A DNA stretch of 64,000 nt. It comes from Candidatus Gastranaerophilales bacterium. GTDB taxonomy: Bacteria > Cyanobacteriota > Vampirovibrionia > Gastranaerophilales > Gastranaerophilaceae. Both the position numbers and the translations under genes were made by a program. The DNA is taken from positions 1-64,000 of the forward strand of contig CALUUK010000007.1 of NCBI GenBank assembly GCA_944323955.1, read 5' to 3'. This document shows, one piece after another, positions 8,807-60,710 of the stretch (position 1 is the stretch's first letter; the number at the start of each line of letters is the position of its first letter). Below the pieces are notes generated by a model. It saw only the letters and a list, made by a program, of their open reading frames with translations, did not search any database and was not told the origin of the DNA.

Positions 8807-8817
8807 AAAGGTTATAT

Positions 8818-9330
8818 ATGTGCGTAGTAACATCTACAGTTGCAGCGACTGTTATACCTGCAATAATTTCTGCTGTTAGTTCGGCAGCAATTGGTATTAA
8901 GCAGGCAATGAATACAAGTGCAATACAAAAATTTCAAGCCGAACAGAATGTTCGGCAAGCTAAAATAGCTGAACGAAATGCAGTATATGAAAGACAAGAG
9001 GGAATAGAAGATGCAAGAGAACAAAAATTAAAATCCATACAAAATATTGGCAGACAAAAAACCTTAATTGCTTCAGGAAATATCATGACTTCTTCTGCAA
9101 CTGCCATAAATGTATTTGAGGATGAAAAATTATCAGGAGAAATTGATGCACTTAAACTTATTGATGCTTCGGAAAAAAGAGCCCGAGCATATACGGATTC
9201 TGCACAGAACCAGTATGCAAATGCAGCGATTAAAAAACAGCAAAGTATTAATACATTAACTACAGAATTAAGTGTACAAGGTGCAAATTTGACAAATTCA
9301 ATGTTTGGTTTGTCTCAGGGATTATCGTAA
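8818..9330 (+). CDS. Internal virion (gp14-like) protein
   Basis: A 170-residue protein with an N-terminal Ala/Ile/Val-rich hydrophobic segment (about residues 3-28, MCVVTSTVAATVIPAIIS) followed by a long charged helix (ARE, KLKS, IQNIGRQK) and an Ala/Gln-rich tail. This is the layout of T7 gp14-like ejection proteins, which are released into the host envelope and form part of the DNA channel. Position after the gp13-like gene matches T7 gene order. Confidence 0.7.
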   Translation: MCVVTSTVAATVIPAIISAVSSAAIGIKQAMNTSAIQKFQAEQNVRQAKIAERNAVYERQEGIEDAREQKLKSIQNIGRQKTLIASGNIMTSSATAINVFEDEKLSGEIDALKLIDASEKRARAYTDSAQNQYANAAIKKQQSINTLTTELSVQGANLTNSMFGLSQGLS

Positions 9331-9350
9331 CGGTAAGAAAGCAGGTAAGA

Positions 9351-10739
9351 ATGACAGAATTAACAGGAAAAAAAGACTCATCTACACAATCATTTTCTTT
9401 AAAGAAAATCCCCGTATCTGATAAGAATGAAACAGTTTTTGACACAGAAGATAATAAATATGCCGATAAAGTAAAATTACTTGAACTCTCTAATTTAATT
9501 GACAGTTGGGAAAAAGAACTTCTTTTTGATGAAAACGGCTTTTTTAACTTAAAAGGAAAAGATGTCCGAAACAAATCAAAAGAGTATATTCAGGAACTTG
9601 AAAAATTTATAAATTCCAAAATGTCTTCTATGACTTTTTCTTTGGAAAATTCTAAACTTGCGGCAAAAGAGCTTAGAAAAATAAAGACAGAAAACATTAA
9701 ATCAAAACTTCTTCAGCATGAACAAAAAGAGTTATATGAATGGGAAATAAGCGTTTATAATAATGCAATCTTAGCCGCACACGATAAAGCTCTTTTATAT
9801 AAACATGATGATGAAACGGTCATGAAATGTATTAAAAACGGAATTAATATTATTTCAATTATGGCCGAAAGAGAAAGTTGGAAACCTAAAGTTCTTAAAG
9901 CAAAAAAAGACAAATTTATATCCGACTGCTGTTTTGATATTATTAAATCTTTTATAGATGAAAAAGATTTAAATTCTTTAAGTTCTTATAATTTGTATTC
10001 TAAATATTTAATTGAAGAACAGCGGCAAGAACTTGATACTGCCATATCCGGTATCAAAAATAATATTATAGCTTATAACTGGGCGGTTGAGCTGTTTTCT
10101 TATAATCTTGATGATAAAGAAAATGAAAAGGAAATAAAAAATCTAAAAGATAGTAATCTGGAAACTCTGGTTCGTAAATATTTGAATATTCTTAAAAAAC
10201 AAAAGCAAAAGAATGAAGATATTTCAGAAAAGGAAAAAATTCGGCAAAGCTGGGATAAGATAGTTTCTTTTCTTGATACGGAACCTGAAAAAGCATTTTT
10301 ATACATTGATTTGACCATGGATAAAGATGTAATAAAAGCACAAAAAGAGTATATAAAACAAATTATCGGCAAAGGCTTTATCGAAACGGATAAAGCCAAA
10401 TTTTGCGAATTGTTTGACGAAATGCTGAATAAATTTAATGAATTTAAAAAACAAATTCTAAGTAAATACAAGCATCAATTGTCAGAGACAGATTTTGATT
10501 TTCTTGAAAAATTACAATCTCAAAACGATACTGATTATCTTAAATTGTCATATGACTATAAATTTTTGCTTGAGAAGCTAAAGAAAAATGCAATAAAAAG
10601 TTCAGATAAAATTTACGATTATATTTTGAATTACCGTTTGGCGGTTGAGGAATATGAATCAGTAAACGAGAAAAAATCTGACCTTGAAAAAAGAAATAAG
10701 ATTATAAATTCAATTCTTGAAAGAAATATAAATAAATAA
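9351..10739 (+). CDS. Large coiled-coil phage protein, probable ejection protein
   Basis: A 462-residue, Lys/Glu/Leu-rich protein predicted to be almost entirely helical, with no Cys-rich, catalytic or membrane motif that I can see. Its position between the gp14-like protein and the tail fibre is where T7-like phages carry the internal core proteins (gp15, gp16), so an ejection or inner-core role is likely. It is much shorter than T7 gp15 or gp16, and no lytic transglycosylase motif is visible. The assignment is positional. Confidence 0.6.
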   Translation: MTELTGKKDSSTQSFSLKKIPVSDKNETVFDTEDNKYADKVKLLELSNLIDSWEKELLFDENGFFNLKGKDVRNKSKEYIQELEKFINSKMSSMTFSLENSKLAAKELRKIKTENIKSKLLQHEQKELYEWEISVYNNAILAAHDKALLYKHDDETVMKCIKNGINIISIMAERESWKPKVLKAKKDKFISDCCFDIIKSFIDEKDLNSLSSYNLYSKYLIEEQRQELDTAISGIKNNIIAYNWAVELFSYNLDDKENEKEIKNLKDSNLETLVRKYLNILKKQKQKNEDISEKEKIRQSWDKIVSFLDTEPEKAFLYIDLTMDKDVIKAQKEYIKQIIGKGFIETDKAKFCELFDEMLNKFNEFKKQILSKYKHQLSETDFDFLEKLQSQNDTDYLKLSYDYKFLLEKLKKNAIKSSDKIYDYILNYRLAVEEYESVNEKKSDLEKRNKIINSILERNINK

Positions 10740-10749
10740 AGGAGTAAAA

Positions 10750-12627
10750 ATGACAGTATCATCAATAATTCCGGTAAATAATTATATTGGCAACAACAGT
10801 ACTACAGTATTTGATTTTGATTTCCTTATAGAAAATGCTGAAGAATTGCTTGTTACTCATACATCGGATAAAGAAATTTCTACAGTATTAAAATACGGTA
10901 TTGATTATTCTATAGAAGAAATCGGGAACAGCAACGGAAGCAGAATTGTTTTTCCGCTGCCGGAGTCAACATTCGGACTGCTTCAAAATAATGAGATTTT
11001 GTCTTTATCTTTAAATTTGGAAATTAAACAGGACAGTAAATTTGAAAATTCTTCTTATTTGGATTTGAGTGTATTAGAGTGGACATTTGATTATATTGTA
11101 AGAATTCTTCAAATATTGAACAGAAAAGTGGACAGATGTTTGAAAACCCGTGAAGGCACGACTGATACACCCGATAATCTGATAAATATGATAGCCCGAT
11201 TACATGCCGAATCTGTAGAAAATGCAAATAAAGCCGAACAATATGCACAAGAAGCTCAAGATGTAATAAAAGAGAATGTATCTTGGGGTAAAATATACGG
11301 AACTGTGTCAAATCAATCCGATCTTCAGAGTGTTTTGGATACAAAAGCCGATATTACTTTATGTAATGAAATAGTAAAAGACAAACTGGCTCAAGGGCTT
11401 GGTATTGAAACAGGAGAGATTTGTTCGGATTCTGATATATATGCCGATGTGTTAAGTTATAGAAATTCAGGCAGTAAAACATTAACTGAAGTTATAAATC
11501 CTGCGAATTACACGGTAACAGGAAGTCCGAATATATCAGATGAGGGTTATCTTGATACATCATCGGGGTATGATTCTTCCAATAGTATTAATACAATAAG
11601 CGGCATAGATTTAAGAGAGGGGAATACAAAAGGGCTAAATATTTCATTTGAATTTAGGCTTAATGAACAAAAAACAGGATTTCTGTTAAATGTGCTGGCT
11701 CAAAGTGAAAGTAATTCAGTATTAAGATTTGGAGTAAATACATCAGGAACAATGTATTGCCAGATGTGGAAAAACGGAAGCCTGCAAGGGCAGGCGATTA
11801 CTACAACCGTTCTCACCGTAAATACCTGGTATAAAGTTATTTTATCAGGTTCTAATAACAGTTTTAAAATTGCTTTATATGAAGATAGTGAAGTCAGTGT
11901 AGACCCAGAACAAATAGAAAATCCGTCTTTTCCTTTGTCACCCGATGAAGAGATAACTTTAATTGCAAACTATTCTCTTGCTGAAAATATTTCAGCAATT
12001 TCGTTTCCGGCTTCAAATATTACAAATTATATCTTAAGTTTGAACGATTTAAAAGTGGAAGTCGGTGGAGAGCTGGTATACAGCCCGTATCTTGCGATAA
12101 ATTATGTCCAAAGTAAAACGGGCAGCAAGATAGCCGATGCATATTACAGATATATAATAAGGCAGATATATGAAGAGAACGGCTATGCACCTTATTATAC
12201 TATTGACATTGTTAATCAAACTTTTACACTTCCTATGGGCGAAGTGTACGGGATGATTCAAAAGAATACTTCAAGGTTTGAGGAAACGCCTCATGTTGTA
12301 GAGACTTATATTAACACGGAACACAGTGATACTTATGGTGCAGACATAACCTCATGGTATCGTATTTGGTCGGACGGCTGGTGCGAGCAGGGACAGGAAG
12401 CAGGCAGTGCTTCTAATTTTACGCAAGATACGACTATAAATCTTCTAAAGCCGTATAAAGATATAAACTACTTTTTGTCAGGAACAGGATTTGTTATAGG
12501 CTCTATTGGAAATCACTTTTTAGCTGCGAAAACTAATTCATCTTTTACGACATCAAGTGATACAAGAAGTGCCGGTACAAATTATTGGATGGCTGCAGGC
12601 TATATTAATTTAGATTCGGAGGTATAG
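10750..12627 (+). CDS. Tail fibre/receptor-binding protein with LamG-like domain
   Basis: A 625-residue protein in three parts. Residues 1-130 resemble the virion-anchoring domain of podoviral fibres (TVFDFDFLIENAEELLV, later TREGTTDTPDNLINMI). A short helical neck (about 150-180) follows. Residues about 250-435 look like a LamG/concanavalin sandwich (GLNISFEFRLNE, NTWYKVILSGSNNSFKIALY), a sugar-binding fold. The C-terminal part has FTLPMGEVYGMI, as in tail-collar proteins, then a tip domain with SWYRIWSDGWCEQG, seen in fibres of gut phages. It probably recognises a surface glycan or pilus of the host. Confidence 0.8.
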   Translation: MTVSSIIPVNNYIGNNSTTVFDFDFLIENAEELLVTHTSDKEISTVLKYGIDYSIEEIGNSNGSRIVFPLPESTFGLLQNNEILSLSLNLEIKQDSKFENSSYLDLSVLEWTFDYIVRILQILNRKVDRCLKTREGTTDTPDNLINMIARLHAESVENANKAEQYAQEAQDVIKENVSWGKIYGTVSNQSDLQSVLDTKADITLCNEIVKDKLAQGLGIETGEICSDSDIYADVLSYRNSGSKTLTEVINPANYTVTGSPNISDEGYLDTSSGYDSSNSINTISGIDLREGNTKGLNISFEFRLNEQKTGFLLNVLAQSESNSVLRFGVNTSGTMYCQMWKNGSLQGQAITTTVLTVNTWYKVILSGSNNSFKIALYEDSEVSVDPEQIENPSFPLSPDEEITLIANYSLAENISAISFPASNITNYILSLNDLKVEVGGELVYSPYLAINYVQSKTGSKIADAYYRYIIRQIYEENGYAPYYTIDIVNQTFTLPMGEVYGMIQKNTSRFEETPHVVETYINTEHSDTYGADITSWYRIWSDGWCEQGQEAGSASNFTQDTTINLLKPYKDINYFLSGTGFVIGSIGNHFLAAKTNSSFTTSSDTRSAGTNYWMAAGYINLDSEV

Positions 12628-12629
12628 AT

Positions 12630-13157
12630 ATGGAAAAATTATTTACGGAAAAAGAATACACACAAAAGGCGCAAGAGGCAAATACTCAGGGACAAAAGCT
12701 GTATATTTATACATATAGTCAGGAAGTTGAAGTTGATGTACCTGTTTATGATGAAAACGGATTTCAGACAGGAACAAAAAAAGAAACGGCAGAAAAAGAA
12801 TTTGCAAAACTTTTAATCGCTCCGTCAAATTATTACATATGCTATAAAGACAATTATACCAATGGCAGTGTAAATCCTGATTATGAAGAGGAAAATGAAC
12901 TTACGCAAAAGATAAGAATATCAAAATTATCTCTTACAAAAAGAGAAGTTTTTCTTGCTCTTTATAATGCAAAAGGTATAACCCCGGAGGAAGTGCGTAA
13001 TCAAATCACGGATACAAAAGCTCTTATAGAATTTGATTATGCAAATGAGTATTACAGGGGAAATCCTTTGATTGACACAATAGGAGCTGTGCTCGGATAT
13101 AGTTCCGACGATTTGGATTATCTTTTTATAAATAAGGAATTACCGAAAAATGAGTAA
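12630..13157 (+). CDS. Fibre-associated phage protein, possible chaperone
   Basis: A 175-residue acidic protein directly after the fibre gene (2-base gap, GGAGG site). The N-terminal half is beta-rich with a VDVPVYDENGFQTGTKK loop. The C-terminal half is helical: LTKREVFLALYNAKGI, then DYANEYYRGNPL and LGYSSDDLDYLF. Genes in this place are often fibre-assembly chaperones or accessory tip proteins. I do not recognise a named family, so the role is inferred from position. Confidence 0.55.
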   Translation: MEKLFTEKEYTQKAQEANTQGQKLYIYTYSQEVEVDVPVYDENGFQTGTKKETAEKEFAKLLIAPSNYYICYKDNYTNGSVNPDYEEENELTQKIRISKLSLTKREVFLALYNAKGITPEEVRNQITDTKALIEFDYANEYYRGNPLIDTIGAVLGYSSDDLDYLFINKELPKNE

Positions 13158-13635
13158 AGAACAAATAAAATCAATTAATTTCAATATTGAACCGGAGGTA
13201 AGGATCAGAGTCATTAATGACTCTGATCCCGTGCCTGTTAAAAAAAGTAAAGTAGAATATCCTTTTGAACTGAATAATACATTGACTGTTTATATTGTTA
13301 CTTCAAAAAGAGAGTTTCAGTTTAATATTTATAACGGATACACATGGAACGGAGCGGATATACCCAGAATGTTCTGGCGGATAATAGGTTCAAGAACGGA
13401 TAACGATTTTTTGATTGCCTCAATGTTGCATGATTATATGCTTGAGTTTAAATCATATATAATTCATGAAGTTTTGGGAAATCAGATTAGTATGAAAGAA
13501 TACAGAAGGTTAACGTCGCTTGTGTTTAGGGAAAAAATAAAAGCACAGGGAACAAATACAATAAAAGCTAATATAATGGCTTGGTGTGTCGATGTTTTCC
13601 AAATGTGTAATATCAGGAGCTGGAAATGTCCATAA
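13150..13635 (+). CDS. DUF1353 family phage protein
   Basis: A 161-residue protein with the DUF1353 signature: a G-x-T-W-N-G-A-D-I-P-R segment (about residues 62-72), FWRIIGS, and SMLHDYM. The family is widespread in phage lysis/tail regions and its biochemical role is unknown. It overlaps both neighbours (8 bases upstream, 10 bases downstream), so the three genes are translated as a coupled set. An unusual 28-base perfect palindrome lies inside its 5' end (13202-13229). Confidence 0.75.
   Translation: MSKEQIKSINFNIEPEVRIRVINDSDPVPVKKSKVEYPFELNNTLTVYIVTSKREFQFNIYNGYTWNGADIPRMFWRIIGSRTDNDFLIASMLHDYMLEFKSYIIHEVLGNQISMKEYRRLTSLVFREKIKAQGTNTIKANIMAWCVDVFQMCNIRSWKCP
13202..13229. repeat. 28-base perfect palindrome inside DUF1353 gene
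   Basis: The two 14-base halves are exact reverse complements with centre TTAA. In RNA this gives a 12-pair stem with a four-base loop. No T-run follows, so it is not a simple terminator. Confidence 0.8.
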
Positions 13636-13850
13636 CATATGAATTGGCTTTTTGTATTGTCGTACAGCTTATAACTGCGGGAATATGCCTGGGAGTATAC
13701 AAATGTACTGTATCTTTTATGCAGCAGGAAATAGCGGAACTTAAGCAGGATATGAAAAAATATAATAATGTTTTGGAAAGACTTATAAGAGTAGAAGATA
13801 GTGCGCAGCTGGCTCATCATCGAATAGATGATATTTATGATAAGACTTAA
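13626..13850 (+). CDS. Small membrane/coiled-coil protein, holin-accessory-like
   Basis: A 74-residue protein with one N-terminal membrane segment (about residues 6-28) and a charged coiled-coil tail (EIAELKQDMKKYNNVLERL). This is the shape of XhlA-like or other lysis-accessory proteins. AGGAG at 13615-13619 serves the ATG, which overlaps the end of the DUF1353 gene. No endolysin follows: the phage module stops here at a strong terminator. The lysis role is inference. Confidence 0.55.
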   Translation: MSITYELAFCIVVQLITAGICLGVYKCTVSFMQQEIAELKQDMKKYNNVLERLIRVEDSAQLAHHRIDDIYDKT

Positions 13851-13885
13851 AAAAGCGAACCCTATATTTAAGGGTTCGCTTTTTT
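13849..13885. terminator. Bidirectional terminator, phage module / lysC operon
   Basis: A 15-base perfect stem (13849-13863 with 13871-13885) around a 7-base loop, with A-run on one side and T-run on the other. It ends the phage module on the plus strand and the lysC operon on the minus strand. Confidence 0.9.
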
Positions 13886-13898
13886 GTGTGTTTTATTG

Positions 13899-15155
13899 TT
13901 ATACATTTGGTAAGTCGCCTTTAACAACGGCCATTTCAGATGTTTCAAGCCCGAATTCTTTACATAATGCTTTAATTGCATCTTTAGCATTATTTTTTTC
14001 CACAAGACAGCTTATCTTAATTTCGCTGGTTGAAATCATTTTAATATTTATTTCATTTTCAGCTAAAGATCTGAACATATCAGCCGCAATACCGGGTCTG
14101 TCAACCATTCCTGCACCGACAATAGAAACTTTAGCAATATCTTTATCAATTAATATTTCACCTGCATTAACTTCTTTTCTTACGAGTTCAAGAATATCAA
14201 TTGCGCTGTTTAGATCATTTTCATCAACTGTGAATGCTATTGAGTTTGTTCCGTTGTTTGCAAGTGATTGAATAATCATATCAACGCTTATATTGTTTTT
14301 TGCAAGTGCACCGAATACTTTTGCTGCGGTACCGGGAATATCCGGTAAGTTAGCTAACAATATTCTTACCTGAGAAGAATCTGCTGCAACTCCTGCGACC
14401 GGTTTATATATTTCCATATTTTCAACTCCTATTATTAATGTACCTAAATTGTCTAATTTGAATGAACTGCGAACACGCAAAGGAACGTGGAATTGTTTTG
14501 CGGTTTCAACAGATCTTGGGTGAAGAACATTTGCACCAACTCTTGCAAGTTCAAGCATTTCTTCATAAGATATAACATCTGCTTTTTTAACATTCGGAAC
14601 TATTCTCGGATCAGTTGCATATACACCTTCTACGTCCGTATATATGTCGCATCTTTCTGCTTTTAGTGCTGCGGCAATTGCAACTGCTGAAGTATCCGAA
14701 CCGCCTCTTCCTAATGTAGTTATTTCTCCATCGGGGGTAACGCCTTGAAATCCCGCAACGACTATTATCTTGCCTTCTTTTATATGGCGCTGTAATTTTT
14801 CTGTTTTTATATCGACAATTCGGGCTTTTGAGTGGACATTTTCGGTTATAATACCAACCTGTTGTCCGTTCATACTTATTGCTTCATAACCGTGTGCTTG
14901 AATTGCCATGGCAAGCAGTGCTATAGAAACCTGTTCTCCGGTTGAAAGAAGCATGTCCATTTCTCTTGAATCCGGATTTAAAGTTACTTCTTTTGCTAAT
15001 TTTATGAGGTAATCTGTTGTATGCCCCATTGCCGAAACTACAACAACAACATCGTTACCATTTTCTTTTTCTTTAATGACGGCGTTTGCTACGTTGTGAA
15101 TTTTTTGCGGATCTGCAACGGATGTTCCGCCGAATTTTTGTACAATTATACCCAA
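13899..15155 (-). CDS. lysC: Aspartate kinase
   Basis: A 418-residue aspartokinase, catalysing ATP-dependent phosphorylation of aspartate, the first step towards lysine, threonine, methionine and diaminopimelate. The N-terminal KFGGTS motif (residues 7-12), the TTLGRGGSDTSA loop and DVEGVYATDPR are all present. Two ACT domains occupy the C-terminal third, with VADSSQVRILL and later SIVGAGM, giving probable feedback control by lysine or threonine. It is the last gene of a kdsC-like / TPR / lysC run, four bases after the TPR gene, and ends at the terminator at 13849-13885. Confidence 0.95.
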   Translation of the reverse strand: MGIIVQKFGGTSVADPQKIHNVANAVIKEKENGNDVVVVVSAMGHTTDYLIKLAKEVTLNPDSREMDMLLSTGEQVSIALLAMAIQAHGYEAISMNGQQVGIITENVHSKARIVDIKTEKLQRHIKEGKIIVVAGFQGVTPDGEITTLGRGGSDTSAVAIAAALKAERCDIYTDVEGVYATDPRIVPNVKKADVISYEEMLELARVGANVLHPRSVETAKQFHVPLRVRSSFKLDNLGTLIIGVENMEIYKPVAGVAADSSQVRILLANLPDIPGTAAKVFGALAKNNISVDMIIQSLANNGTNSIAFTVDENDLNSAIDILELVRKEVNAGEILIDKDIAKVSIVGAGMVDRPGIAADMFRSLAENEINIKMISTSEIKISCLVEKNNAKDAIKALCKEFGLETSEMAVVKGDLPNV

Positions 15156-15159
15156 TTTC

Positions 15160-16866
15160 CTATCCTTTATTAATGTTTAGTGTATGGTTTACATATGCAC
15201 TAACTTTGTTTTCCGATTGATTGTTTGATTTCAACTCATCCAATTTTGCTGCATACAAGTTAAGCATGCTTTCATTATAGTTCGACGGCTCTTCTTCGAC
15301 AAGTGTTCTGTATGCAAGATAGTTTAAATATACGAATAAAACCGAAGACTTTTCTTCTTCGGGGATAGAGCACAACAGATTTATGGCTTCATGAACTTTA
15401 TTAAGATTAATTAAACAATGTGCTTTTATAAGTTTTGCTTCTTTGTTTTCAGGGTCTTTTTTTAAGATGATATCGGTTTTTTCCGCAGCATCGTTAAACA
15501 ACCCTGACTTTAAACATGTAAGAGCGTATATTAATATGACTTTTGTTGACTCCCTGTCTATTTGATAGGCGCTTCTTATTTTTCTTAATGCATCTTTTGT
15601 ATTGTTTATATCAAGAAAACTGACAGCGCAGTTAATATGGGCTTCTATGTGCCGTGGATAGTATTCTATGGTTTTTTCATAATATTCAATACTTCTTTTT
15701 ATGTGATTTTGTTTATAGTGTGAATTTGCTATATAAAAATAAAGATGTGAGTTTTCTGCAGAAAGATTTATTGCACGTTGGAAACAAGAGATTGCTTCAT
15801 CGTATTTTTGAAGATCATAATATAAGATTCCTAGATCTGAATATGCAAGAGAATTTTTGCTGTCTGACTTTATAGCTTTATCATAGTATTTTTTTGCATT
15901 TTCATTATCTCCTTCTTTATATAAACAAACTCCCATTCTATATAAGGCATCAGAATTTTCCGGTTTTATTGATAAGGCTTTATTGATTTTATCTTTTGCA
16001 TTTTTTATATCCTGTAATTTTGTGAGAACAATGCCCCAGGACAAATAAAATCCAAAATCACCAATATTCTTTTTTTGTGCGTTTTCATATACATTTAAGC
16101 ATTCTTGTGTTTTATTTAAGTTCAAATAATTTTGTGCCAATAAGACATAAACAATAGGATTATCAGGGTCTTCCTCAACCGCTCTTTGGGCATATTCCAA
16201 AACTGCCATGTAATTTTTTTCTCTTTTATAACAAATCGCAAGGTAATAGTTTAATTTTTTATAATTAGGATCCAAATTTTCAAGCTGTTTAAATTCACAA
16301 AATGATTCATTTATTTGGTCTGTTTCATAATACATAACCCCGAGTAAAAAATATGAGTGAAAGTTTGCGGGATTTAAAAATTTTGCTTTTTTAAGCATTT
16401 CTATTGCTTTAAACTTTTTTTGCAGTTTTGTGTATAAGATTCCGTAGTTTAAGTATAATTCGGCATTGTTAGGTGAAAGTTTAAGCCCTTTTTTAAGTAT
16501 ATCTTCGGCTTCATTGTATTTGCCCGTTGCAACCAGTACACTGCTTAAAACAGAATAGGTATAAGAGTTTTGAAAATCTTTCTTTATTGCCAGATTAAGT
16601 ATATCCTCTGCTTTTTCATATTCTCTTATCTTTGCATATATAACACCTAAAATGATGCAGGGTTTCGGATTTTGCCCCGACATCAAGATGGCGGTTTCCA
16701 GCTTTTCTATGGCGGCATTATAATCTTCAAGCTCAGCTAAATGGACAGCCCAGTTAGTATAGGCCAATGCCGGAATTTCAATATTATGGGAATACTTGAT
16801 GTATGAAGAAGTATAATTATCAAGTTTTTCTATTTTATTAAATATTTGCTGCAAAAAAGTTTTCAT
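15160..16866 (-). CDS. Large TPR-repeat protein
   Basis: A 568-residue protein composed almost wholly of tetratricopeptide repeats: 34-residue units with the W/Y-A-x-x-G and A-x-x-x-x-P patterns recur from about residue 30 to 520 (such as LAYSDLGILYYDLQKYDEAI). No signal peptide or enzyme domain is visible, so it is a cytoplasmic scaffold or binding protein of unknown partner. Its ATG overlaps the kdsC-like stop codon (ATGA), so the two are translationally coupled. The genetic link to an LPS-type phosphatase and aspartokinase does not identify its role. Confidence 0.85.
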   Translation of the reverse strand: MKTFLQQIFNKIEKLDNYTSSYIKYSHNIEIPALAYTNWAVHLAELEDYNAAIEKLETAILMSGQNPKPCIILGVIYAKIREYEKAEDILNLAIKKDFQNSYTYSVLSSVLVATGKYNEAEDILKKGLKLSPNNAELYLNYGILYTKLQKKFKAIEMLKKAKFLNPANFHSYFLLGVMYYETDQINESFCEFKQLENLDPNYKKLNYYLAICYKREKNYMAVLEYAQRAVEEDPDNPIVYVLLAQNYLNLNKTQECLNVYENAQKKNIGDFGFYLSWGIVLTKLQDIKNAKDKINKALSIKPENSDALYRMGVCLYKEGDNENAKKYYDKAIKSDSKNSLAYSDLGILYYDLQKYDEAISCFQRAINLSAENSHLYFYIANSHYKQNHIKRSIEYYEKTIEYYPRHIEAHINCAVSFLDINNTKDALRKIRSAYQIDRESTKVILIYALTCLKSGLFNDAAEKTDIILKKDPENKEAKLIKAHCLINLNKVHEAINLLCSIPEEEKSSVLFVYLNYLAYRTLVEEEPSNYNESMLNLYAAKLDELKSNNQSENKVSAYVNHTLNINKG

Positions 16867-51889: not shown

Positions 51890-53305
51890 TTGTATAATTC
51901 AATATACCCGGGATATGGAAATTACTATTCGGGTTTGAATAACAGGCAAATAACGAGAAAAAAAGATGATGAAAAAAATTCACATCAATCTCAAAGTGCC
52001 CAAAACACGGAACAAGAAGAAAGAAGAGTTTCTCAAAATACACAGCTTCAACAAACTTCCCAAAATTCAACATCTGTGTTTCAGACTCAAATTCAGCAAA
52101 ATAATATAGTTTTTCCCAACGGTGAAAAATCGGCAATTGATTATACAAAAAAGCATATTAATATCACACAGGTTGTTAAAGATTTCAAAAATACTGCAAA
52201 TGCAATAGGTGCACCTGACGATATCAAAGCGGAAGTTCAATCGTATTTATCGCTTGTAGAAAGCCAGTCTCAAAAAGAATCTCCCAATCAGCAAATAATA
52301 CAGTCAAATTTGAAAAATGCCTCACAAATTCTTGATGCATATATAACGGATACGCTGAAAAAACCTTCAACCGTAGTAGAAAACTGGGTAGATGCTTTAT
52401 TCCTTCAGCAGATTGATTATAAAGCTCCAAATCAGGCTCCGAAAGAAACATTGCAAACTGACTTCGTTGCGGCTGAAGAAATTCCTTCTTCTTCGGATAT
52501 TTCAGCAGAAGAACAAACGGCGGAAAAGAAGAATGATTTTTATATCCCGGGGGATAAACAATTAAAAAATATGTTTATCCGGGCAAAAAAATATGCTGCT
52601 GTTGATAATAAAGAAAAAGCTCTGCACGCATTTCAGCAGGTGGCGGATTATGCGGAAGAAACGGGTGATATTCAAACTGCCGCGATTGCGTATTATGAAC
52701 AAGGTCTGATTTATGATGATTTTAACAGAACAGAAGATGCTCTGTATAATCTTGACAGAGCTTCTAAACAATCAGATGATAATAATATCAAAGCAAGAGC
52801 ACATCTTTCGATGGGTAAAATATATGATGATTACGTGAATTTTGAACCTGCCGTAGATCACTACTGTGCTGCGGTTTCTTTTGCCGGAGAGTCGGATAAT
52901 CTTAATCTTCAAACAAAAGCATTATCTGATTTAACGAAGATACACGCCGCAAGATATGATAAAGAAAATACATTTATGTTTATGAATATGACAGATACTA
53001 TAGCGGAAGAAACCCGCAGTGGCAAAATTAAAGGTATAACATTTGCTTCAAATGCCGACTGCTGCGAAAAACTTAATGAAAAAGCAAGAGCGCTTAAATA
53101 TTACGGAAAATCCGCACGGTTATATACTCAAGAAGGGTATTATGAGGGATTGGCAAAGGATTATTCAAAGGCTGCCGATATTATGGTTCAATACGGAAAT
53201 GCGGCAAAAGCAAAGAAACTGCTTTCAAAAGCCTATATTGCCATACAAAAATGTGATAATCCCGAATTAAAACAGGAAATAGTTGATAAAATAACATCAT
53301 TGTAA
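51890..53305 (+). CDS. TPR-like protein with Gln/Ser-rich N-terminus
   Basis: A 471-residue protein. The first 75 residues are low-complexity and rich in Gln, Ser and Asn after a MYNSIYPGYGNYYSG start. Residues 80-170 are helical. From about 225 to 465 TPR-like units follow (AAIAYYEQGLIYDDFNRTED, KAKKLLSKAYIAIQKCDNPE). No signal peptide is visible. The TTG start at 51890 has AAGG about 10 bases upstream. It is divergent from rplU behind the inverted-repeat cluster. I do not know its role. Confidence 0.75.
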   Translation: MYNSIYPGYGNYYSGLNNRQITRKKDDEKNSHQSQSAQNTEQEERRVSQNTQLQQTSQNSTSVFQTQIQQNNIVFPNGEKSAIDYTKKHINITQVVKDFKNTANAIGAPDDIKAEVQSYLSLVESQSQKESPNQQIIQSNLKNASQILDAYITDTLKKPSTVVENWVDALFLQQIDYKAPNQAPKETLQTDFVAAEEIPSSSDISAEEQTAEKKNDFYIPGDKQLKNMFIRAKKYAAVDNKEKALHAFQQVADYAEETGDIQTAAIAYYEQGLIYDDFNRTEDALYNLDRASKQSDDNNIKARAHLSMGKIYDDYVNFEPAVDHYCAAVSFAGESDNLNLQTKALSDLTKIHAARYDKENTFMFMNMTDTIAEETRSGKIKGITFASNADCCEKLNEKARALKYYGKSARLYTQEGYYEGLAKDYSKAADIMVQYGNAAKAKKLLSKAYIAIQKCDNPELKQEIVDKITSL

Positions 53306-53365: not shown

Positions 53366-54706
53366 ATGAAAATAGTTATATATGGCGCAAATGAACTTGC
53401 CGGTATCATTGCGGCGAAGTTGTTTGAAGATCACGATATTATAATAATAGATGAAGATACATCCAAGCGTCATTCGTTTGAAAAATTAGACCTTGAATTT
53501 GTTATTGGTTCCGGAGCGAATATTAATGTTCTGGAATCGGTCGGTATTAAAACGGCTGATATATTTATAGCATGCACAGATAATGATGAGGCAAATATTG
53601 TTGCCTGCCTCACCGTTACAAATATGGCGAAATTGAAAACACTTTGTGTTGTGAGCAAAAAAGACAATGTAGAATCGCTTTCACTTGTGAGAGGGTCAAA
53701 ATATCAAAAAGAACTGCTTATTGATTATGTCCTTTGGCCGGAAGAACTTATGACGCAGGAGATATTTCGTATAATCACGGTACCGAATGCTATAGATGTT
53801 GAAAATTTTGCAAACGGCAAAGCAAGATTGCTTGAGTATAGAATTGATGACGAGACAAAATTTATAAATAAAAAAGTTAAAGATTGCAGTTTCCCCGATG
53901 AAACGCTTATTGTCGGAATAACCCGTGAAAATAAACTTTTTATTCCGAACGGTGAAACGGAATTGCTTTTAAACGATAAAGTTATTTTTATGGGATCTTC
54001 ATATTCTCTGGATATTCTTGCAAACAGGTTCTTTCAGGATACAAGCGGCGTGAAGCAGGTTACAATAATAGGCGGAGGAAATGTAGGATTAATGCTTGCG
54101 CAGAATCTTGAAAAAGCCAATATGAAAATTAAACTTATAGAAAATGATTATAAAAGATGTGTCGAATTGACGGAAAATCTTAAACATACTCTTGTTTTAA
54201 ACGGGGACGGGGCAAATTATGACCTTCTGGAATCGGAGAGAATAGGAGAGTCAGATGTTGTTGTGAGTGTAACCAATAATGACGAGAAAAATCTTTTATG
54301 TTCATTGCTTGCAAAGCATTTAGGGGTTCCTAAAGTAATAAGCAGAGTTTATAAAAATGCAAATTCAAGTTTGTTTGAAAAAGTGGGTATAGATGTTGCG
54401 ATTTCTCAGAACGGAGCGGCAATTGACGATATAGAAAACCATCTTATAAAAACGGATATAGAGATTCTTGCAACAGTTGAACGCGGACAGGGAGAAGTGC
54501 TTGAAATTTCCGTTCCTTTTAACTTTAAAACCGAAATGATAATGAATTTAAAACTTCCAGTAAAAGCGATTATTGCTATTATACAAAGAAGAAACAGGGT
54601 TATAATACCGCGGGGAACAACCCAGGTAATGCCGTCAGATAATCTCATAATATTTACCACACAGGAAAATTCAGACAGTATAAAAGAATATTTTAAAAGG
54701 TGTTAG
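53366..54706 (+). CDS. trkA: Trk potassium uptake regulator TrkA
   Basis: A 446-residue peripheral protein with two RCK units, each of an NAD-binding TrkA-N and a TrkA-C domain. The first begins KIVIYGANELAGIIAAKL, the second has TIIGGGNVGLMLAQNL (about residues 230-245). It gates the TrkH potassium channel, encoded 7 bases downstream. The pair is a complete Trk/Ktr-type uptake system. Confidence 0.95.
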   Translation: MKIVIYGANELAGIIAAKLFEDHDIIIIDEDTSKRHSFEKLDLEFVIGSGANINVLESVGIKTADIFIACTDNDEANIVACLTVTNMAKLKTLCVVSKKDNVESLSLVRGSKYQKELLIDYVLWPEELMTQEIFRIITVPNAIDVENFANGKARLLEYRIDDETKFINKKVKDCSFPDETLIVGITRENKLFIPNGETELLLNDKVIFMGSSYSLDILANRFFQDTSGVKQVTIIGGGNVGLMLAQNLEKANMKIKLIENDYKRCVELTENLKHTLVLNGDGANYDLLESERIGESDVVVSVTNNDEKNLLCSLLAKHLGVPKVISRVYKNANSSLFEKVGIDVAISQNGAAIDDIENHLIKTDIEILATVERGQGEVLEISVPFNFKTEMIMNLKLPVKAIIAIIQRRNRVIIPRGTTQVMPSDNLIIFTTQENSDSIKEYFKRC

Positions 54707-54713
54707 GATTCAT

Positions 54714-56189
54714 ATGAATATAACTTCCGTATTGAGCATTATAAGTATTATATTAAGATTTTTTTCCGTTATGATTCTGGTGCCTTGTGTATGTGCAATA
54801 ATGTTCAAGGACTATAATTCAATAGTACCTTTTGTCATAGCATCACTTTTGGCTCTTATTGCGTCACTTTTACTAAGGAATAAAAATAACGGTGAAGATG
54901 AATTAAATAAGATTAACAGAACGGAAATATTTTGCGTAATGCTTTTGGCGTGGGGGTCATTGTGTCTTCTGGGCGCAATCCCGTTTTTTTATTTTGGTTT
55001 AAGTCCTGTGGATGCAATATTTGAAAGTGTATCGGGAATAACAGCGACGGGAGCAACCATTCTTTCTGATTTTTCAAAATATCCCGAGACTATGTTTTTC
55101 TGGCGGTCTTTCAGCCAATGGCTTGGCGGTATGGGAATACTTGTTTTGTTTACGGTTATTCTTCCTCAGTTCTCAATTGCCGGCAGGCAGATGTTCTTTA
55201 CGGAAGTGCCCGGTTCCAAAGATAATAACCTTACTCCGAGAATAAGGCAGACGGCAGCTTGGCTTTGGGGCATATATTTTACGTTGACAGTTGCGGAAAT
55301 AATAGTTTTAACATACTTGAAAATGCCTTTATTTGATGCTGTTTGTACTTCTTTTTCGACAATATCCGGCGGGGGTTTCTCTCCGAAAGAAGAAAGTCTT
55401 ATAGCATACGGACAGGTAAAATATATTTGGGCTGTTGCTATCTTTTTATTTTTTGCGGGATTTAACTTTGCGCTTCAGTTTAAAGCATTTGTCAGAGGAA
55501 AAATTGTTTCTCTGTTTAAAGATGAAGAATTTAGGCTTTATTTCTTTATTGTAGCAGGATTTACAATATTAATCGCTCTTACTCTGACATCTCATCACAT
55601 ATATGATTTTTCACGTTCCGTCAGAGAAGCGTTTTTTCAAGTCTTATCAGTAATTACAACGGCGGGATTTGCGTCGGTGGATTATGCACAATGGAATTTA
55701 AGAGCTAAACTTTTCCTTTTTATATTAATGTTTACAGGTGCATCAATAGGTTCCGCATCAGGCGGTATCAAATTATTCAGGCTTATCGTTATATTTAAAT
55801 ATTTAAAAAGACAAATTTCTAAAATTCATCATCCGAACGGTGTTTATCCCATTAAAATAAACAGAGCAATAATGAAAGAAGATGCCATAAAACAGGTTGT
55901 TTCTTTTGTGCTTTTTTATTATGGTATTTTCGTTTTAAGTGCAATATTGCTGATATTTATTGAGCAAAATGCTATAACGGGGGTATCTGCTTCCATAGCT
56001 ACTTTGGGTAATGTCGGGCCGGGATTTGGTGAAGTTATCGGTCCGATGGGAAGTTACGGGACTCTTCATATTTCATCCAAAATAATCTGTACATTTAATA
56101 TGCTGATAGGCAGACTTGAATTGATTCCGTTTCTGGCCTTGCTGCATCCCGACTTCTGGAATTTCAAAAGAGCACTTGCACAAAAATAA
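54714..56189 (+). CDS. trkH: Trk potassium uptake channel TrkH
   Basis: A 491-residue membrane protein of the TrkH/KtrB family, with about ten membrane segments and four selectivity-loop glycines: SGITATGAT, STISGGGFS, ITTAGFAS and LGNVGPGFG. It imports potassium with TrkA. It lies directly downstream of trkA with 7 bases between. Confidence 0.95.
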   Translation: MNITSVLSIISIILRFFSVMILVPCVCAIMFKDYNSIVPFVIASLLALIASLLLRNKNNGEDELNKINRTEIFCVMLLAWGSLCLLGAIPFFYFGLSPVDAIFESVSGITATGATILSDFSKYPETMFFWRSFSQWLGGMGILVLFTVILPQFSIAGRQMFFTEVPGSKDNNLTPRIRQTAAWLWGIYFTLTVAEIIVLTYLKMPLFDAVCTSFSTISGGGFSPKEESLIAYGQVKYIWAVAIFLFFAGFNFALQFKAFVRGKIVSLFKDEEFRLYFFIVAGFTILIALTLTSHHIYDFSRSVREAFFQVLSVITTAGFASVDYAQWNLRAKLFLFILMFTGASIGSASGGIKLFRLIVIFKYLKRQISKIHHPNGVYPIKINRAIMKEDAIKQVVSFVLFYYGIFVLSAILLIFIEQNAITGVSASIATLGNVGPGFGEVIGPMGSYGTLHISSKIICTFNMLIGRLELIPFLALLHPDFWNFKRALAQK

Positions 56190-56237: not shown

Positions 56238-56906
56238 ATGTTTAGAAAAGCAATAATTTTGGGATTGATTATCCCTCTGGCAGTGTATATAGGTAAGTTG
56301 TTAGCAGTTGGTATAAGTAAAATCCAACCTACGGAGTTTAAGCCGGTTTTCGGTATATTTCTGCTTGATATATCAGCATCAAGCAGAGCACTTTTGGATG
56401 AAGAACAGGAATGTATAGTCAGAATTGCTAAAAAACTTGATTCTGATGATCATGTAAAAATATATGTTGTTACTCAGGATGCTTACGAAGTATATGACGG
56501 AAGTCCTCATAAAGGTTCTTTAATGAGAGCTGCTATGAAGAAACGTTCAGTTTTTGATTCAACCGCATTCGGTACCGCATATGGCAGTGCGCTGAAAAAA
56601 GCTGTGGGAGATGCCCTCAGATATAAAGCAGAAGGTTATACTCCCGCAATTATTGTCCTTGGCGATTTGGAAAATGAAGGTGCCGTTGATAAACAGATTA
56701 ACTGGAATACTTTGCCAAAGAACATTGAAAATACTTTAAAATATATCCCTGAATTGTCATTAACATTCTTATATGCTCATCCTCAAAAACTTGATGATGC
56801 AAAACAGGCGCTTATTTCTGTTTTAAAAGAAGATAAACTTATTATTGCGTCAGAAGAAAATATTGAAATGGCTTTAAGAAAATTTTCAAAAGCAGTAGGA
56901 AGATAG
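56238..56906 (+). CDS. VWA-like protein with N-terminal membrane anchor
   Basis: A 222-residue protein with an N-terminal hydrophobic segment (about residues 6-25) and a domain that looks like von Willebrand factor A. A metal-site motif LDISASS (D44, S46, S48) fits DxSxS. A later TAFGTAYGSAL helix and IIVLGDLENEG (around residue 140) match the Thr and Asp positions of the fold. It would act as a metal-dependent protein-binding domain outside or at the membrane. It starts a three-gene set with an FHA-like membrane protein and a zinc-ribbon protein. I do not recognise a named system. Confidence 0.65.
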   Translation: MFRKAIILGLIIPLAVYIGKLLAVGISKIQPTEFKPVFGIFLLDISASSRALLDEEQECIVRIAKKLDSDDHVKIYVVTQDAYEVYDGSPHKGSLMRAAMKKRSVFDSTAFGTAYGSALKKAVGDALRYKAEGYTPAIIVLGDLENEGAVDKQINWNTLPKNIENTLKYIPELSLTFLYAHPQKLDDAKQALISVLKEDKLIIASEENIEMALRKFSKAVGR

Positions 56907-56915
56907 AGGTTATAA

Positions 56916-58595
56916 ATGAAATTAGTTATTGCGTCAAAAGATAAGGAACAGGTATTTAGCAATGCCGATATAATAAATATAGGTACGGCTTCCAGCTGTG
57001 ATTTTAAGTTGAATAAAGCCGATCTGGGGTTTGATTTGATATTTTCAATTCAGTCTCAACCGGATGGTAAATGCCTTGTTGTAAATACTTTTAACAGTGA
57101 TAAATTGCTGTTTAAAGGGCAGCCGATGGGAAAATCTCTGGAAATAGGTTCTCTTTGTAAATTAATGATTGCAGGTACGGATGATTTTATCAGTATAAAA
57201 GCAACGGTTGCAGGAACTATGCCTAAAGTTGTTCCCGGTTCTCTGGAACTTGCAAATAAACGTGGTGCAAAAATTCTTAGACCTGAAAAGAAAACCATGT
57301 CAACTATTGAAGTTGAAGATATAAATGAACAGGATATTGAAAATTTATACGGAAGAGGTATTGGCGCTCAAACGAAACTTAAAATAGACAAAAGAAAAGC
57401 AGACCTTGAAAAAAGAAGAAGTTTTATTCAAAAGGAAATTTCTTTTAAATCTAACTATTTAAAAGATAAACTGGCTCAAAATGAAATTGTTCTGGCTGTT
57501 TTAAATTTCCTTATTGTTTTTACTCCGCTTGCCATAGTATTTATTTTGAAAGATGTTTATAAAGTTCATGCCGGCGCAAGTAATCAGGAAATTCAGACTC
57601 AAATAATGTTTTTGATTTCACTTGTATTTATAATTATTACATTCCTTTTGAAATTAGGTCAGTTCCTTACATTACAAATGAAAAATAATCCGAGAGTAGC
57701 TGAGTCTACAAAACAGATTAAGAACCTCAGTATGGTCTCATCTTGCGGCGTATTTTCAGTTGTAATTGTTTTCAGTATTGCGGAATTATTTACAAGAACT
57801 TATGATGTACCTCCGTTTGCTTGTCAAATGTTGTTATTATGTTCTTGTCTATGTATTTTCCTCGGTGCATTTGCAGGATTTATTAAAAATACAAATACAG
57901 AAACAGGCGAAGAATATGATTCTTATCAAAACAGAGAAGATTTCCAGACATTGATTAAAGATTATCAGCAGTGGATTGTTTTATTTGTAAATAATATTTC
58001 AAAGAAAAAATTAAAAGATACTGATAACCAGATATTCAGCTTACAAATAAAAGCGGGGTTGGAATATTTAATGGGTATTATAACGGCTCCATTCTTGGCA
58101 TACGGTGTTTCTCAAACACTGGCGGAATGTTTTTCGGAAGCTGCAGCGTGGATAAGACTTTCTGCCGGGTTTAAATTCTCTCCGATATTCCTTACTCTTG
58201 CTACATTGATGATTGTATTTGCATTCCACTGTTTTGCAACTTCTTTTGCTACGACAAAAAGAATTTACGCCTCAAATGTAATGAAAGAAGACGGCTTTAG
58301 TGACTATAATGTACATGGTGTTAACATCTATGGTGTTGAAGCCACAAAGAACCTTAAAAAAGAAGCTAAAAAATTCTTATTGATTGCGTTAAGCGTAGTT
58401 GCTATAGAAATGACAATGAACGTTTCTTATTTCGTAGGTGAAATGGGAAGAGATATACAGGGTATGGTTTTAAGTATGATTGCCGCAATGGTTCCTACTG
58501 CTATTTTGATAATGGAAACAACAATGCTCGGTAATACAAAATTTGAAATTATAGCAAAAGAAGAATTGTTACAAAAAGTTGATAAAAGTTATTAA
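56916..58595 (+). CDS. Polytopic membrane protein with FHA-like N-terminal domain
   Basis: A 559-residue protein in two parts. Residues 1-100 look FHA-like: IINIGTASSCDFKLNKADLG near the start, where Gly and Ser fall at the phosphopeptide loop positions. A linker (100-190) is charged. Membrane segments follow at about 191-211, 229-249, 272-292, 301-322, and four more between 385 and 540. The domain and the membrane part suggest a sensor or scaffold complex. A GAGG site precedes the ATG; it lies 9 bases after the VWA gene. The family is unknown to me, and the FHA call is tentative. Confidence 0.55.
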   Translation: MKLVIASKDKEQVFSNADIINIGTASSCDFKLNKADLGFDLIFSIQSQPDGKCLVVNTFNSDKLLFKGQPMGKSLEIGSLCKLMIAGTDDFISIKATVAGTMPKVVPGSLELANKRGAKILRPEKKTMSTIEVEDINEQDIENLYGRGIGAQTKLKIDKRKADLEKRRSFIQKEISFKSNYLKDKLAQNEIVLAVLNFLIVFTPLAIVFILKDVYKVHAGASNQEIQTQIMFLISLVFIIITFLLKLGQFLTLQMKNNPRVAESTKQIKNLSMVSSCGVFSVVIVFSIAELFTRTYDVPPFACQMLLLCSCLCIFLGAFAGFIKNTNTETGEEYDSYQNREDFQTLIKDYQQWIVLFVNNISKKKLKDTDNQIFSLQIKAGLEYLMGIITAPFLAYGVSQTLAECFSEAAAWIRLSAGFKFSPIFLTLATLMIVFAFHCFATSFATTKRIYASNVMKEDGFSDYNVHGVNIYGVEATKNLKKEAKKFLLIALSVVAIEMTMNVSYFVGEMGRDIQGMVLSMIAAMVPTAILIMETTMLGNTKFEIIAKEELLQKVDKSY

Positions 58596-58608
58596 AGGAA
58601 AATAAGTG

Positions 58609-59337
58609 ATGTTTAGATGCACTGAATGTAATGCAGAATATACACAATGTCCCGATTTTTGTGATTGCGGAAATGATACTTTTGAAGAATTTTATGATGA
58701 AGAATTTGATGAAAGACCGGCTCCAAGACAAAAAAGGAAAGAGCCTGAATTGTCTCCGGAAGAAATTGCAGAGCTTGAAGAAGAAAAACGCGACAGGAAA
58801 AAAGCTCTTATTACAATCGGGGCTTCATTATTGCTTTCAATAATTATTCTGTTTTGTCCTCCTTATATGGAAAAGAGAACAGAAAAAGTTAAACAGCAGG
58901 CAATTGCTGCCAATATAAAAGTTCCGGATGTTAATTCATACTGGGATAATACACTTCCTTATCCGACGAGAAAAACTGATTCTTATTATAAACTTCCTTT
59001 ATTAAACAATCAGTTCGGCTCGATTTCAGTGAAACTAAAGAAGTATTTGGGAAAAGTAGGGAATCAGTTTAACAGATATTGGGAACCGTCTTTGGTTAAA
59101 GGTTCGGGTGAATGCCGTGTTACTTTTACCATTGATAAAGAAGGAAATCTTGACCAAAAATATACAAGAATAACAGACAGGTCTAATAATGAATCTTTAG
59201 ATGATTCAGTACTTTTACTATTATCCAAGTTAAATTCTTTTGATATACCTCCGTCAGATTATAAAGGCGAACGTATTATAATTGCTTTCAAAAAAGATGA
59301 AAGCGGTATAAGTAAAGTATATTATCCGTCTAATTGA
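58609..59337 (+). CDS. Zinc-ribbon membrane protein with TonB-C-like domain
   Basis: A 242-residue protein with an N-terminal zinc ribbon (CTEC and CPDFCDC, Cys at 4, 7, 14, 18 and 20), an acidic-charged linker, one membrane segment (about residues 66-84), and a periplasmic C-terminal domain (about 150-235). The last resembles a TonB C-terminal fold: GECRVTFTIDKEGNLDQ, then a SLDDSVLLLLSKL helix and a late strand. The gene has its ATG at 58609 (a GTG at 58606 is an alternative). It is the last of the VWA / FHA-like / this protein set and overlaps the convergent aroA stop by 8 bases. Function unknown. Confidence 0.6.
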   Translation: MFRCTECNAEYTQCPDFCDCGNDTFEEFYDEEFDERPAPRQKRKEPELSPEEIAELEEEKRDRKKALITIGASLLLSIIILFCPPYMEKRTEKVKQQAIAANIKVPDVNSYWDNTLPYPTRKTDSYYKLPLLNNQFGSISVKLKKYLGKVGNQFNRYWEPSLVKGSGECRVTFTIDKEGNLDQKYTRITDRSNNESLDDSVLLLLSKLNSFDIPPSDYKGERIIIAFKKDESGISKVYYPSN

Positions 59338-60607
59338 TAGTTAACTTTGAATGAAGAGCTAAGAACTCGGGAAAAGAAATATCAACCCATTGAAATTCAT
59401 TAATTTTGATGGGTTTTTTGCATATTAAGCCTGCGGTGTATGCGCTCATTGCAATACGGTGGTCGTGGAAACATTCTATTTCACAATCGCCTTCAAGTAT
59501 AGTTTTTCCGTTAATAATAAATCCGTCGGAGGTTTCTGTTATATCTGCTCCGAGTTTTTTAAATTCGCCTGCTACGGCAGAAATTCTGTCTGCTTCTTTA
59601 TTTCGTAAATCTTGGGCATCTTTTATAATTGTAGTACCTTCCGCTTGCGTTGCGGCAATAACAAGTGCGGGAATTTCATCTATAAGTCTCGGTATAATTG
59701 CTCCTTCAACCGCAGCTGCTTTTAAATTTGAATATCTGACCTTTATGTCTGCAACTTTCTCATTTGAAATAATTCTTTCATTTATAATTTCTATATCCCC
59801 GTTCATTTCTTTTAAAACATCAAGAATTCCGGAGCGGGTTATATTAATACCTGCATTTTTTATTGTTATGTCAGAATCAGGCGTAATCAATGCCGCTACA
59901 ATAAAAAATGCTGCCGATGAAATATCTCCGCAGATGGTTATATCTGTCGGATTAAGTGTTGATTTTTTGACTGAGACGGTATTATTTTCTATGTTAATAT
60001 CAGCACCCATATATTCAAACATAAGTTCTGTGTGATTGCGTGATTTATATGGTTCTGTAAAATATGTTGTTCCGTCGGCATATAATCCTGCAAGAAGCAG
60101 ACATGATTTTACCTGCGCCGATGCCAGCGGCGAATTATAAGTAATTCCGTGTAAATCAGCCCCTTCTATTTCTATGGGGAGCTTATAATCGTTGTGAATA
60201 AATTTTGCTCCCATTTCTTCAAGCGGAACAATAACACGTTTCATTGGTCTTTTGGAAAGACTTATATCTCCGAACAATTTTGAATTGAATTTTTGTCCTG
60301 ATAAAATTCCCATCATAAGTCTTGTTGTTGTTCCGGAATTCCCGCAGTCCAAAGGCGCTGTTGATGGCTTTATTGCATTTTTTGCATTTATGAGAACTTG
60401 TTTTTCGTTAATAAAATTAACTTCGCAGCCTAAATTTTGAATTATTTTCAAAGTGGACATACAATCTGCGCCTCTGGAATAATTTGAAACGAGCATTTTA
60501 CCTTTAGTTAAGGCAGAGAACATAAAAGCCCTGTGCGTAATGGATTTATCCGCAGGTATTTCTATTGTTCCCTTTAGCGGTTTTGATTTTTCTACTGTTA
60601 TGTCCAT
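59330..60607 (-). CDS. aroA: 3-phosphoshikimate 1-carboxyvinyltransferase
   Basis: A 425-residue EPSP synthase, the sixth step of the shikimate route to aromatic amino acids. PADKSITHRAFMFSAL near the N-terminus, LDCGNSGTTTRLMMG and the late DHRIAMSAYTAG are the conserved motifs. I chose the ATG at 60607, where the family begins (MDITVEKSKPLKGTIEIP); the frame is open to 60697 but the extra 30 residues match nothing. The gene is isolated from other shikimate genes here and ends overlapping the convergent gene. Confidence 0.94.
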   Translation of the reverse strand: MDITVEKSKPLKGTIEIPADKSITHRAFMFSALTKGKMLVSNYSRGADCMSTLKIIQNLGCEVNFINEKQVLINAKNAIKPSTAPLDCGNSGTTTRLMMGILSGQKFNSKLFGDISLSKRPMKRVIVPLEEMGAKFIHNDYKLPIEIEGADLHGITYNSPLASAQVKSCLLLAGLYADGTTYFTEPYKSRNHTELMFEYMGADINIENNTVSVKKSTLNPTDITICGDISSAAFFIVAALITPDSDITIKNAGINITRSGILDVLKEMNGDIEIINERIISNEKVADIKVRYSNLKAAAVEGAIIPRLIDEIPALVIAATQAEGTTIIKDAQDLRNKEADRISAVAGEFKKLGADITETSDGFIINGKTILEGDCEIECFHDHRIAMSAYTAGLICKKPIKINEFQWVDISFPEFLALHSKLTIN

Positions 60608-60710
60608 ACTTTTATTAGACAATAAATCTGATATAAATGCAAATTTCAAAAATATTTGTATCTTTTTGTCTGTATAAAGCAATTTTTTATTGACCATTTT
60701 GGGATATAAT

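Follow-up and report, generated by a model that had tools for sequence, protein, structure and literature searches.

Introduction

Three adjacent genes, vwa, fha and zt, lie in a 64,000-nucleotide stretch of DNA (hereafter the window; positions 1 to 64,000 of contig CALUUK010000007.1, assembly GCA_944323955.1) from a Candidatus Gastranaerophilales bacterium. They encode membrane proteins whose closest described counterparts are parts of the Glt/Agl machine of Myxococcus, inner-membrane-tethered VWA force transducers, TonB/TolA proteins and SjdR of Anabaena. Gastranaerophilales, which belong to the cyanobacterial line, are common in the gut. Within the Glt/Agl machine, GltJ carries a zinc ribbon. 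According to the reports cited here, GltJ also has a TonB-like C-terminus (PMC8262864) and is an MglA effector (PMC12288465); GltG joins FHA and TonB domains and binds the motor protein AglR, the AglRQS motor comprises one TolQ and two TolR proteins, and conservation of the gliding machine does not extend to Cyanobacteria (PMC3169522). The tethered VWA families combine one N-terminal helix with a periplasmic VWA domain, and a link to motors driven by the proton motive force (PMF) has been proposed for them (PMC12204202). SjdR is a short TonB-like inner-membrane protein from the same phylum as the window and is thought unable to reach the outer membrane (PMC8262864).

The trio shares with Glt/Agl an inner-membrane FHA protein and a membrane protein with a TonB-like C-terminus, as in GltJ. 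Its genome holds one TolQ-type and two TolR-type genes (ExbB, ExbD and ExbD, at locus L160), but unlinked to the trio, and long-linker TonB-like proteins occur in a related five-gene operon (type II, below). Unlike in GltG, the FHA and TonB-C domains are on separate proteins, and the FHA domain belongs to a protein of seven to eight helices, not one. The trio also differs from Glt/Agl in lacking the canonical FHA motif and a motor gene in the operon, and in its lineage, Cyanobacteriota; the tetratricopeptide repeat (TPR) proteins GltD and GltE were not found in the operon, and the TPR gene at 51890-53305 was not compared with them. The VWA protein has the predicted layout of the tethered families, but has neither the SHLS motif nor a long linker ahead of its VWA domain, has no tolQ or tolR beside it, and is accompanied instead by a polytopic FHA partner. 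The third protein, ZT, resembles TonB/TolA (ExbBD-TonB, TolQRA) in its TonB_2 domain and one-helix layout and differs in its N-terminal zinc ribbon, short linker and lack of SHLS; in addition, its family has almost no TonB-dependent receptors. In contrast to ZT, SjdR reportedly has a periplasmic part that does not align with TonB-C, and the available text of that report mentions no VWA or FHA partners (PMC8262864).

We found no description of the trio or its operon in the literature searched, in agreement with a first-pass annotation of the window, which knew of no named system with this gene set. Our preferred, still tentative, reading is that the trio may be the inner-membrane core or scaffold of a conserved, narrow and apparently undescribed trans-envelope complex.

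A conserved gene trio

The three genes were present and as tightly spaced behind trkAH as had been annotated, with gaps of 9 bases between vwa and fha and 13 bases between fha and zt (counted to the zt ATG); trkH ends at position 56189, 48 bases upstream of vwa. All three products are predicted membrane proteins, as previously noted, with one transmembrane (TM) helix in VWA, seven in the FHA protein (eight in the relative L036) and one in ZT. Ratios of non-synonymous to synonymous substitution rates (dN/dS) were calculated against the nearest named relative (L076, the goat-colon metagenome-assembled genome (MAG) RGIG2002, whose FHA protein is 82% identical to the window copy). The values were 0.09, 0.09 and 0.11 for the trio genes, 0.07 for trkH and 0.04 for trkA; therefore, all three trio open reading frames (ORFs) are genes under purifying selection.

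The order and strand of trkH-VWA-FHA-ZT were kept in all 31 same-genus relatives examined, so that the co-occurrence check suggested in the first-pass annotation found the trio intact and not scattered. The first relatives search detected the FHA protein in 33 of 35 same-genus genomes, the window's own included. One further same-genus relative, G018, stands outside the 31-locus count, its FHA gene being split over two contigs. These gene-level facts are firm.

The link to trkAH is confined to the genus. Three same-genus genomes (G008, G032 and G237) gave no FHA-protein match; trkH abuts aroA with nothing between them in G008 and G237, and two small genes separate the pair in G032 (VWA and ZT were looked for at this junction only). 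In G058, G104 and G107, from other genera, trkAH has other neighbours and the FHA family is located elsewhere in the genome; therefore, the Trk link is not general.

Domain composition of the three proteins

The first-pass annotation had called a metal-site VWA domain, and the AlphaFold2 model of the VWA protein (predicted local distance difference test score, pLDDT, 87.1) bears this out. The model matched VWA domains with a VIA Z of 18.4, a root-mean-square deviation (rmsd) of 2.6 over 173 aligned residues and a Foldseek E of 3.9e-8, and the residues of the metal ion-dependent adhesion site (MIDAS) are present. The Pfam VWA_2 match of the window protein was below the cut-off (E 4e-4); the L036 relative passed it with 28.5 bits vs. 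27. A PDB sequence search with the VWA profile gave no match, and one scan of viral contigs with the VWA protein confirmed no relative. All five MIDAS residues are kept in 98 of 107 distinct VWA relatives, where "distinct" means only that identical sequences were removed; the locus sets used here overlap, as the same contig may occur both as a genome-handle locus and as a named contig. Position 20, in the TM helix, is Lys in 104/107 and Arg in 2/107. Two same-genus genomes (L043, and L044, the same record as L088) have a degraded metal site.

For the second protein, a putative phosphothreonine-binding FHA domain had been proposed. The fold stood up in modelling: residues 1-98 (mean pLDDT 81.0) matched FHA domains (VIA Z 12.2, rmsd 2.3, 93 residues aligned to Rv1747 FHA-1), and FHA domains accounted for nearly all of the 50 VIA matches listed, with a best Foldseek E for the FHA-fold domain of only 1.7e-3. 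Structure prediction, suggested earlier as a check, thus returned both the VWA and the FHA folds. The phosphothreonine part of the proposal fell away. A sequence-motif scan found the canonical binding motif GR...SxxH...NG in 0/46 members of the polytopic family, none of which matched Pfam FHA, and every one of the 46 carries T, S or N directly behind the IG step; canonical FHA matches from the same order do show the motif residues. Ser/Thr kinase genes had been expected if the FHA domain was real. The Pkinase family matched in 9 of 60 genomes of the order (five over the cut-off; the control gave a signal in 11 of 14 genomes) and had no match in the window's genome, from which the expected kinase is therefore missing. 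Pfam FHA likewise matched in 5/60 genomes of the order and not in the window's. As a separate observation, canonical FHA domains occur within very long ORFs (1182-2822 aa) at loci L163-L166, in four genomes of the family in which kinase matches are rare.

In the polytopic half and its edge, E383, T390, P392, E498, N502, T528 and E534 are identical in 121/121 distinct FHA-protein relatives. The structure search with the whole-protein model yielded no convincing PDB match for this half, and a PDB sequence search with the FHA-protein profile yielded none. Comparison with ExbB of the window's genome by hhalign indicated no relation, in a weak test with a single sequence on one side. The invariant glutamates were considered as partners of the VWA lysine, a candidate weakened by loci that lack VWA and retain all three.

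The zinc ribbon and the TonB-C domain annotated for ZT were both recovered. The CxxC...CxC signature, seen in 12 listed patterns, is present in 139 of 140 aligned ZT loci (a redundant set), and TonB-C was identified by Pfam only (TonB_2, E 9.9e-8, 32.4 bits, above the cut-off of 22). NCBIfam gave nothing above cut-off for the trio, the best relevant hit being TonB_Cterm (E 0.0012). PADLOC had no match, and PHROGs matched the FHA protein alone, weakly (E 0.0045) and to a single entry of unknown function, with nothing for VWA or ZT. The coordinates of the trio, its domains and the neighbouring genes are listed in Table 1.

Table 1. Coordinates of the trio genes, their domains and flanking genes in the window.
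Feature	Residues	Position	Strand	Description
vwa		56238..56906	+	222 aa, inner-membrane-tethered VWA protein: N-terminal TM, then VWA domain (predicted periplasmic)
VWA TM helix	6-24	56253..56309	+	Carries Lys20
MIDAS DxSxS	44-48	56367..56381	+	Window residues D44, S46, S48, plus T113, D143
fha		56916..58595	+	559 aa polytopic protein, N-terminal FHA-fold domain, 7-8 predicted TM helices
FHA-fold domain	1-98	56916..57209	+	Predicted cytoplasmic; canonical GR...SxxH...NG motif absent
Polytopic membrane half	191-532	57486..58511	+	7 hydrophobic helices (window), 8 (L036)
zt (ZT)		58609..59337	+	Zinc ribbon/TM/TonB-C protein, 242 aa from ATG; GTG start at 58606 possible
ZT short zinc ribbon CxxC...CxC		58609..58692	+	Predicted cytoplasmic
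TonB_2 C-terminal domain of ZT		59038..59274	+	Predicted periplasmic, behind ~56-residue linker
trkA (context)		53366-54706	+	Genus-level neighbour, not judged part of system
trkH (context)		54714-56189	+	Genus-level neighbour, not judged part of system
aroA-like gene (context)		59330..60697	-	Convergent; 8-base overlap with end of zt

A five-gene family operon and its distribution

The first-pass annotation missed a larger operon of the family, to which the window trio is related. This second locus type (type II) consists of five genes in the order GZ-VWA-FHA-TC-ZT. Clustering of 65 type II loci of named MAGs recovered FHA in 65, TC in 63, VWA in 60, ZT in 58 and GZ in 56; the commonest neighbour family after these was seen in 27. 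Among the 50 loci with enough flank, TC was present in 50, VWA and ZT in 46 each and GZ in 44, and the order was kept in 49; in several type II loci VWA is absent and GZ directly precedes FHA. Both locus types occur together in some same-genus genomes. A tree was built from 50 selected FHA proteins of the loci collected here, and in it a single branch with 100/100 support separated the 14 type I (trk-linked) from the 36 type II proteins. The trio and the five-gene operon are paralogous. As the root of the tree is not known, the direction of change is taken from gene content, by which the window trio appears to be a reduced relative of the five-gene operon.

TC combines a single helix with a linker rich in Lys, Pro and Gln and a C-terminal domain resembling part of ZT TonB-C. 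In the window's genome, TC had no match in a search run without a positive control. GZ, which is secreted, contains a glycine zipper; a full-length match to it was seen in only 4 of 15 searched genomes, the ones having type II. Counting only sequences caught by the search pattern, type I ZT linkers had a median length of 56 residues (n = 25) and type II linkers one of 150 (n = 27). In 19 of the 65 type II loci we also observed a small one-helix protein (median 92 aa) whose helix and KPxMHK stretch are like the TC N-terminus. A secreted protein of ~300 aa with a VWA-like DxSxS motif, recognised by eye, is encoded convergently downstream of the operon in 27/65 loci, for example at L034:10360-11277 (-) and L037:11231-12130 (-).

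FHA-protein matches were found in 193/286 genomes of the order, 138/289 of the class and 115/339 of the phylum sample, these samples overlapping. All genomes among the matches listed fall in family f1, with one exception: G050, whose MAG is 66% complete and comes from a different family. In a search of named relatives, from which the best 80 of 143 matches were kept, the nearest informatively named ones were MAGs from animal guts assigned to Candidatus Gastranaerophilales (Melainabacteria). A third, more distant FHA-protein group was noticed in genus g23 (E ~1e-130; for example G155:C5:193519-195060, ~5.5 kb from a type II copy), and a still weaker one in genus g22 (E ~1e-22).

Flanking genes and signals

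The convergent, putatively aroA-like gene after zt, named without a family search, follows the trio in 29 of 31 same-genus loci; one remaining contig ends there and the other, L181, has other genes. At L181 (G009, reverse complement, 7977-16586), a 2869-aa ORF that looks adhesin-like lies downstream of the trio, and aroA is not a neighbour. Upstream of trkA, the TPR-repeat protein gene at 51890-53305 adjoins trkA in many same-genus loci, including two without the trio. Promoter-like sites were at shuffle level (32 vs. a shuffle mean of 30.6) and terminator-like sites above it (15 vs. 4.8); one of the latter, at 59384-59415 (+), is located just 3' of zt within the aroA-like gene.

Discussion

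From the gene set, the folds and the predicted topology, we infer the contacts of an inner-membrane complex with a role in envelope or surface assembly. In this arrangement the polytopic FHA protein would act as the hub, its FHA-fold domain binding a cytoplasmic protein partner without phosphothreonine and its membrane half, with the three invariant glutamates, holding the assembly. VWA would use its single helix, which carries the near-invariant lysine, to dock from the periplasm, and its metal site would bind a periplasmic or cell-wall ligand. ZT would link a cytoplasmic zinc-ribbon contact to the periplasmic TonB-C-like domain. In the complete five-gene form, TC as a second TonB-like protein, the long-linkered ZT and the secreted GZ may carry the complex towards the outer membrane. 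As no GZ or TC lies beside the trio and its ZT linker is short, the site of action of the trkAH-linked window form is probably the inner membrane and cell wall.

Several observations weigh against this scheme. The likeness of TC to ZT rests on just 42 columns at 88% hhalign probability, and TC neither has a TonB Pfam match nor resembles the TonB encoded in the Exb cluster of the window's genome. GZ is weakly TrbI/VirB10-like (E 0.005, below the cut-off) in one of two proteins tested. MIDAS is altered in 9/107 distinct VWA proteins. Fourteen FHA loci have no full-length VWA match, some of them being cut by contig ends, and all keep the three glutamates; VWA docking alone therefore does not explain these residues.

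By analogy, the parts are best read as resembling the Myxococcus Glt machine, and the trio may perhaps work like parts of the Glt or TonB systems. It lacks what defines those systems and should not be classed with either of them. We assign a smaller though appreciable probability to an alternative, that of a PMF-driven force transducer: ZT, and with it TC and VWA, would be TonB-like outputs of a single ExbB/TolQ-ExbD-ExbD motor and would pull outer-membrane or cell-wall targets, as GltG and AglRQS do in Myxococcus gliding. The gene inventory offers such a motor, with one MotA_ExbB gene in each of 38 family f1 genomes and at least one in 60/60 genomes of the order sample. The only MotA_ExbB gene of the window's genome is located away from the trio, in a cluster that also contains two ExbD genes, a TonB gene whose product has the SHLS motor-binding motif, and a shorter GZ paralogue; GZ plus a TonB-like protein therefore recur in two envelope loci. 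The domain pairing of GltG, the subunit composition of AglRQS (PMC3169522) and the proposal that inner-membrane-tethered VWA proteins are force transducers (PMC12204202) also fit this view. TonB-dependent receptors, moreover, were found in 8/60 genomes of the order and just 2/38 of family f1, so that a TonB-like protein in these genomes must largely serve another purpose; the window's genome is one of those two, and its receptor lies away from the trio. However, SHLS, present in the Exb-cluster TonB, was found in 0/108 VWA, 0/119 ZT and 0/72 TC sequences, and its absence from the trio and TC counts against direct motor coupling. The short type I ZT linker and the lack of any Exb gene within the trio and five-gene operons examined point the same way.

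Two observations on these genes stand apart from that comparison. The Exb cluster (L160:6084-10345; G000:C3:31000-46000) also encodes a TrbI-like-looking secreted protein of 182 aa with no Pfam match, next to the GZ paralogue, TonB, ExbB and the two ExbD. The sole TonB-dependent receptor gene of the window's genome (L183:3728-8284) is flanked by ABC-uptake-like genes, as judged from an ORF reading without a family search, and no TonB gene lies beside it.

A periplasmic VWA complex for quality control or stress, Bat-like or otherwise, in which VWA is the working domain and the FHA protein its membrane platform, seems improbable. BatB of Bacteroides is among the Foldseek VWA matches, and the inner-membrane tether and the metal site, kept in most relatives, would suit such a role; but the match is at fold level only and tied with integrins, Rpn10 and others, and the recurrent neighbours, distinguished by clustering and start sequence with no BatD or MoxR family search, showed neither a MoxR-type ATPase nor a second Bat gene. 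It would be just as surprising if the FHA protein were itself the energised or ion-conducting module. E383, E498 and E534, placed within the membrane or at its edge, would then form a proton or ion path with the invariant Thr, Pro and Asn residues and drive VWA and the TonB-like partners without an ExbB-type motor.

The ion-linked signalling raised in the first-pass annotation, here taken to mean that the trio assists or regulates the TrkAH potassium system, is more doubtful still. The trio does lie directly downstream of trkH in all 31 same-genus loci that carry it, but trkAH persists without the trio in three genomes of the genus, and in three genomes of other genera it has other neighbours with the FHA family elsewhere. 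Phosphothreonine signalling, in which the FHA domain would read the products of Ser/Thr kinases, can be set aside as very improbable: the modelled fold speaks for it, but the canonical binding motif is absent from all 46 members scanned and kinases are scarce in the order and missing from the window's genome.

The earlier interpretation is therefore partly supported, having been right about a coherent, conserved membrane operon and about its domains. The gene set of the trio is a conserved one in a non-photosynthetic gut relative of cyanobacteria. If the FHA protein did conduct ions, it would represent a new, lineage-specific kind of trans-envelope energy coupling. Under the reading we prefer, that of a trans-envelope complex, the family would possess an operon dedicated to the envelope, with an unclassified polytopic FHA protein as its core. 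The occurrence of two TonB-like partners in genomes nearly devoid of TonB-dependent receptors may offer a handle on TonB-like roles besides nutrient uptake, and the proposed complex would join an FHA fold, a VWA domain and a zinc ribbon in one membrane assembly outside the known gliding systems.

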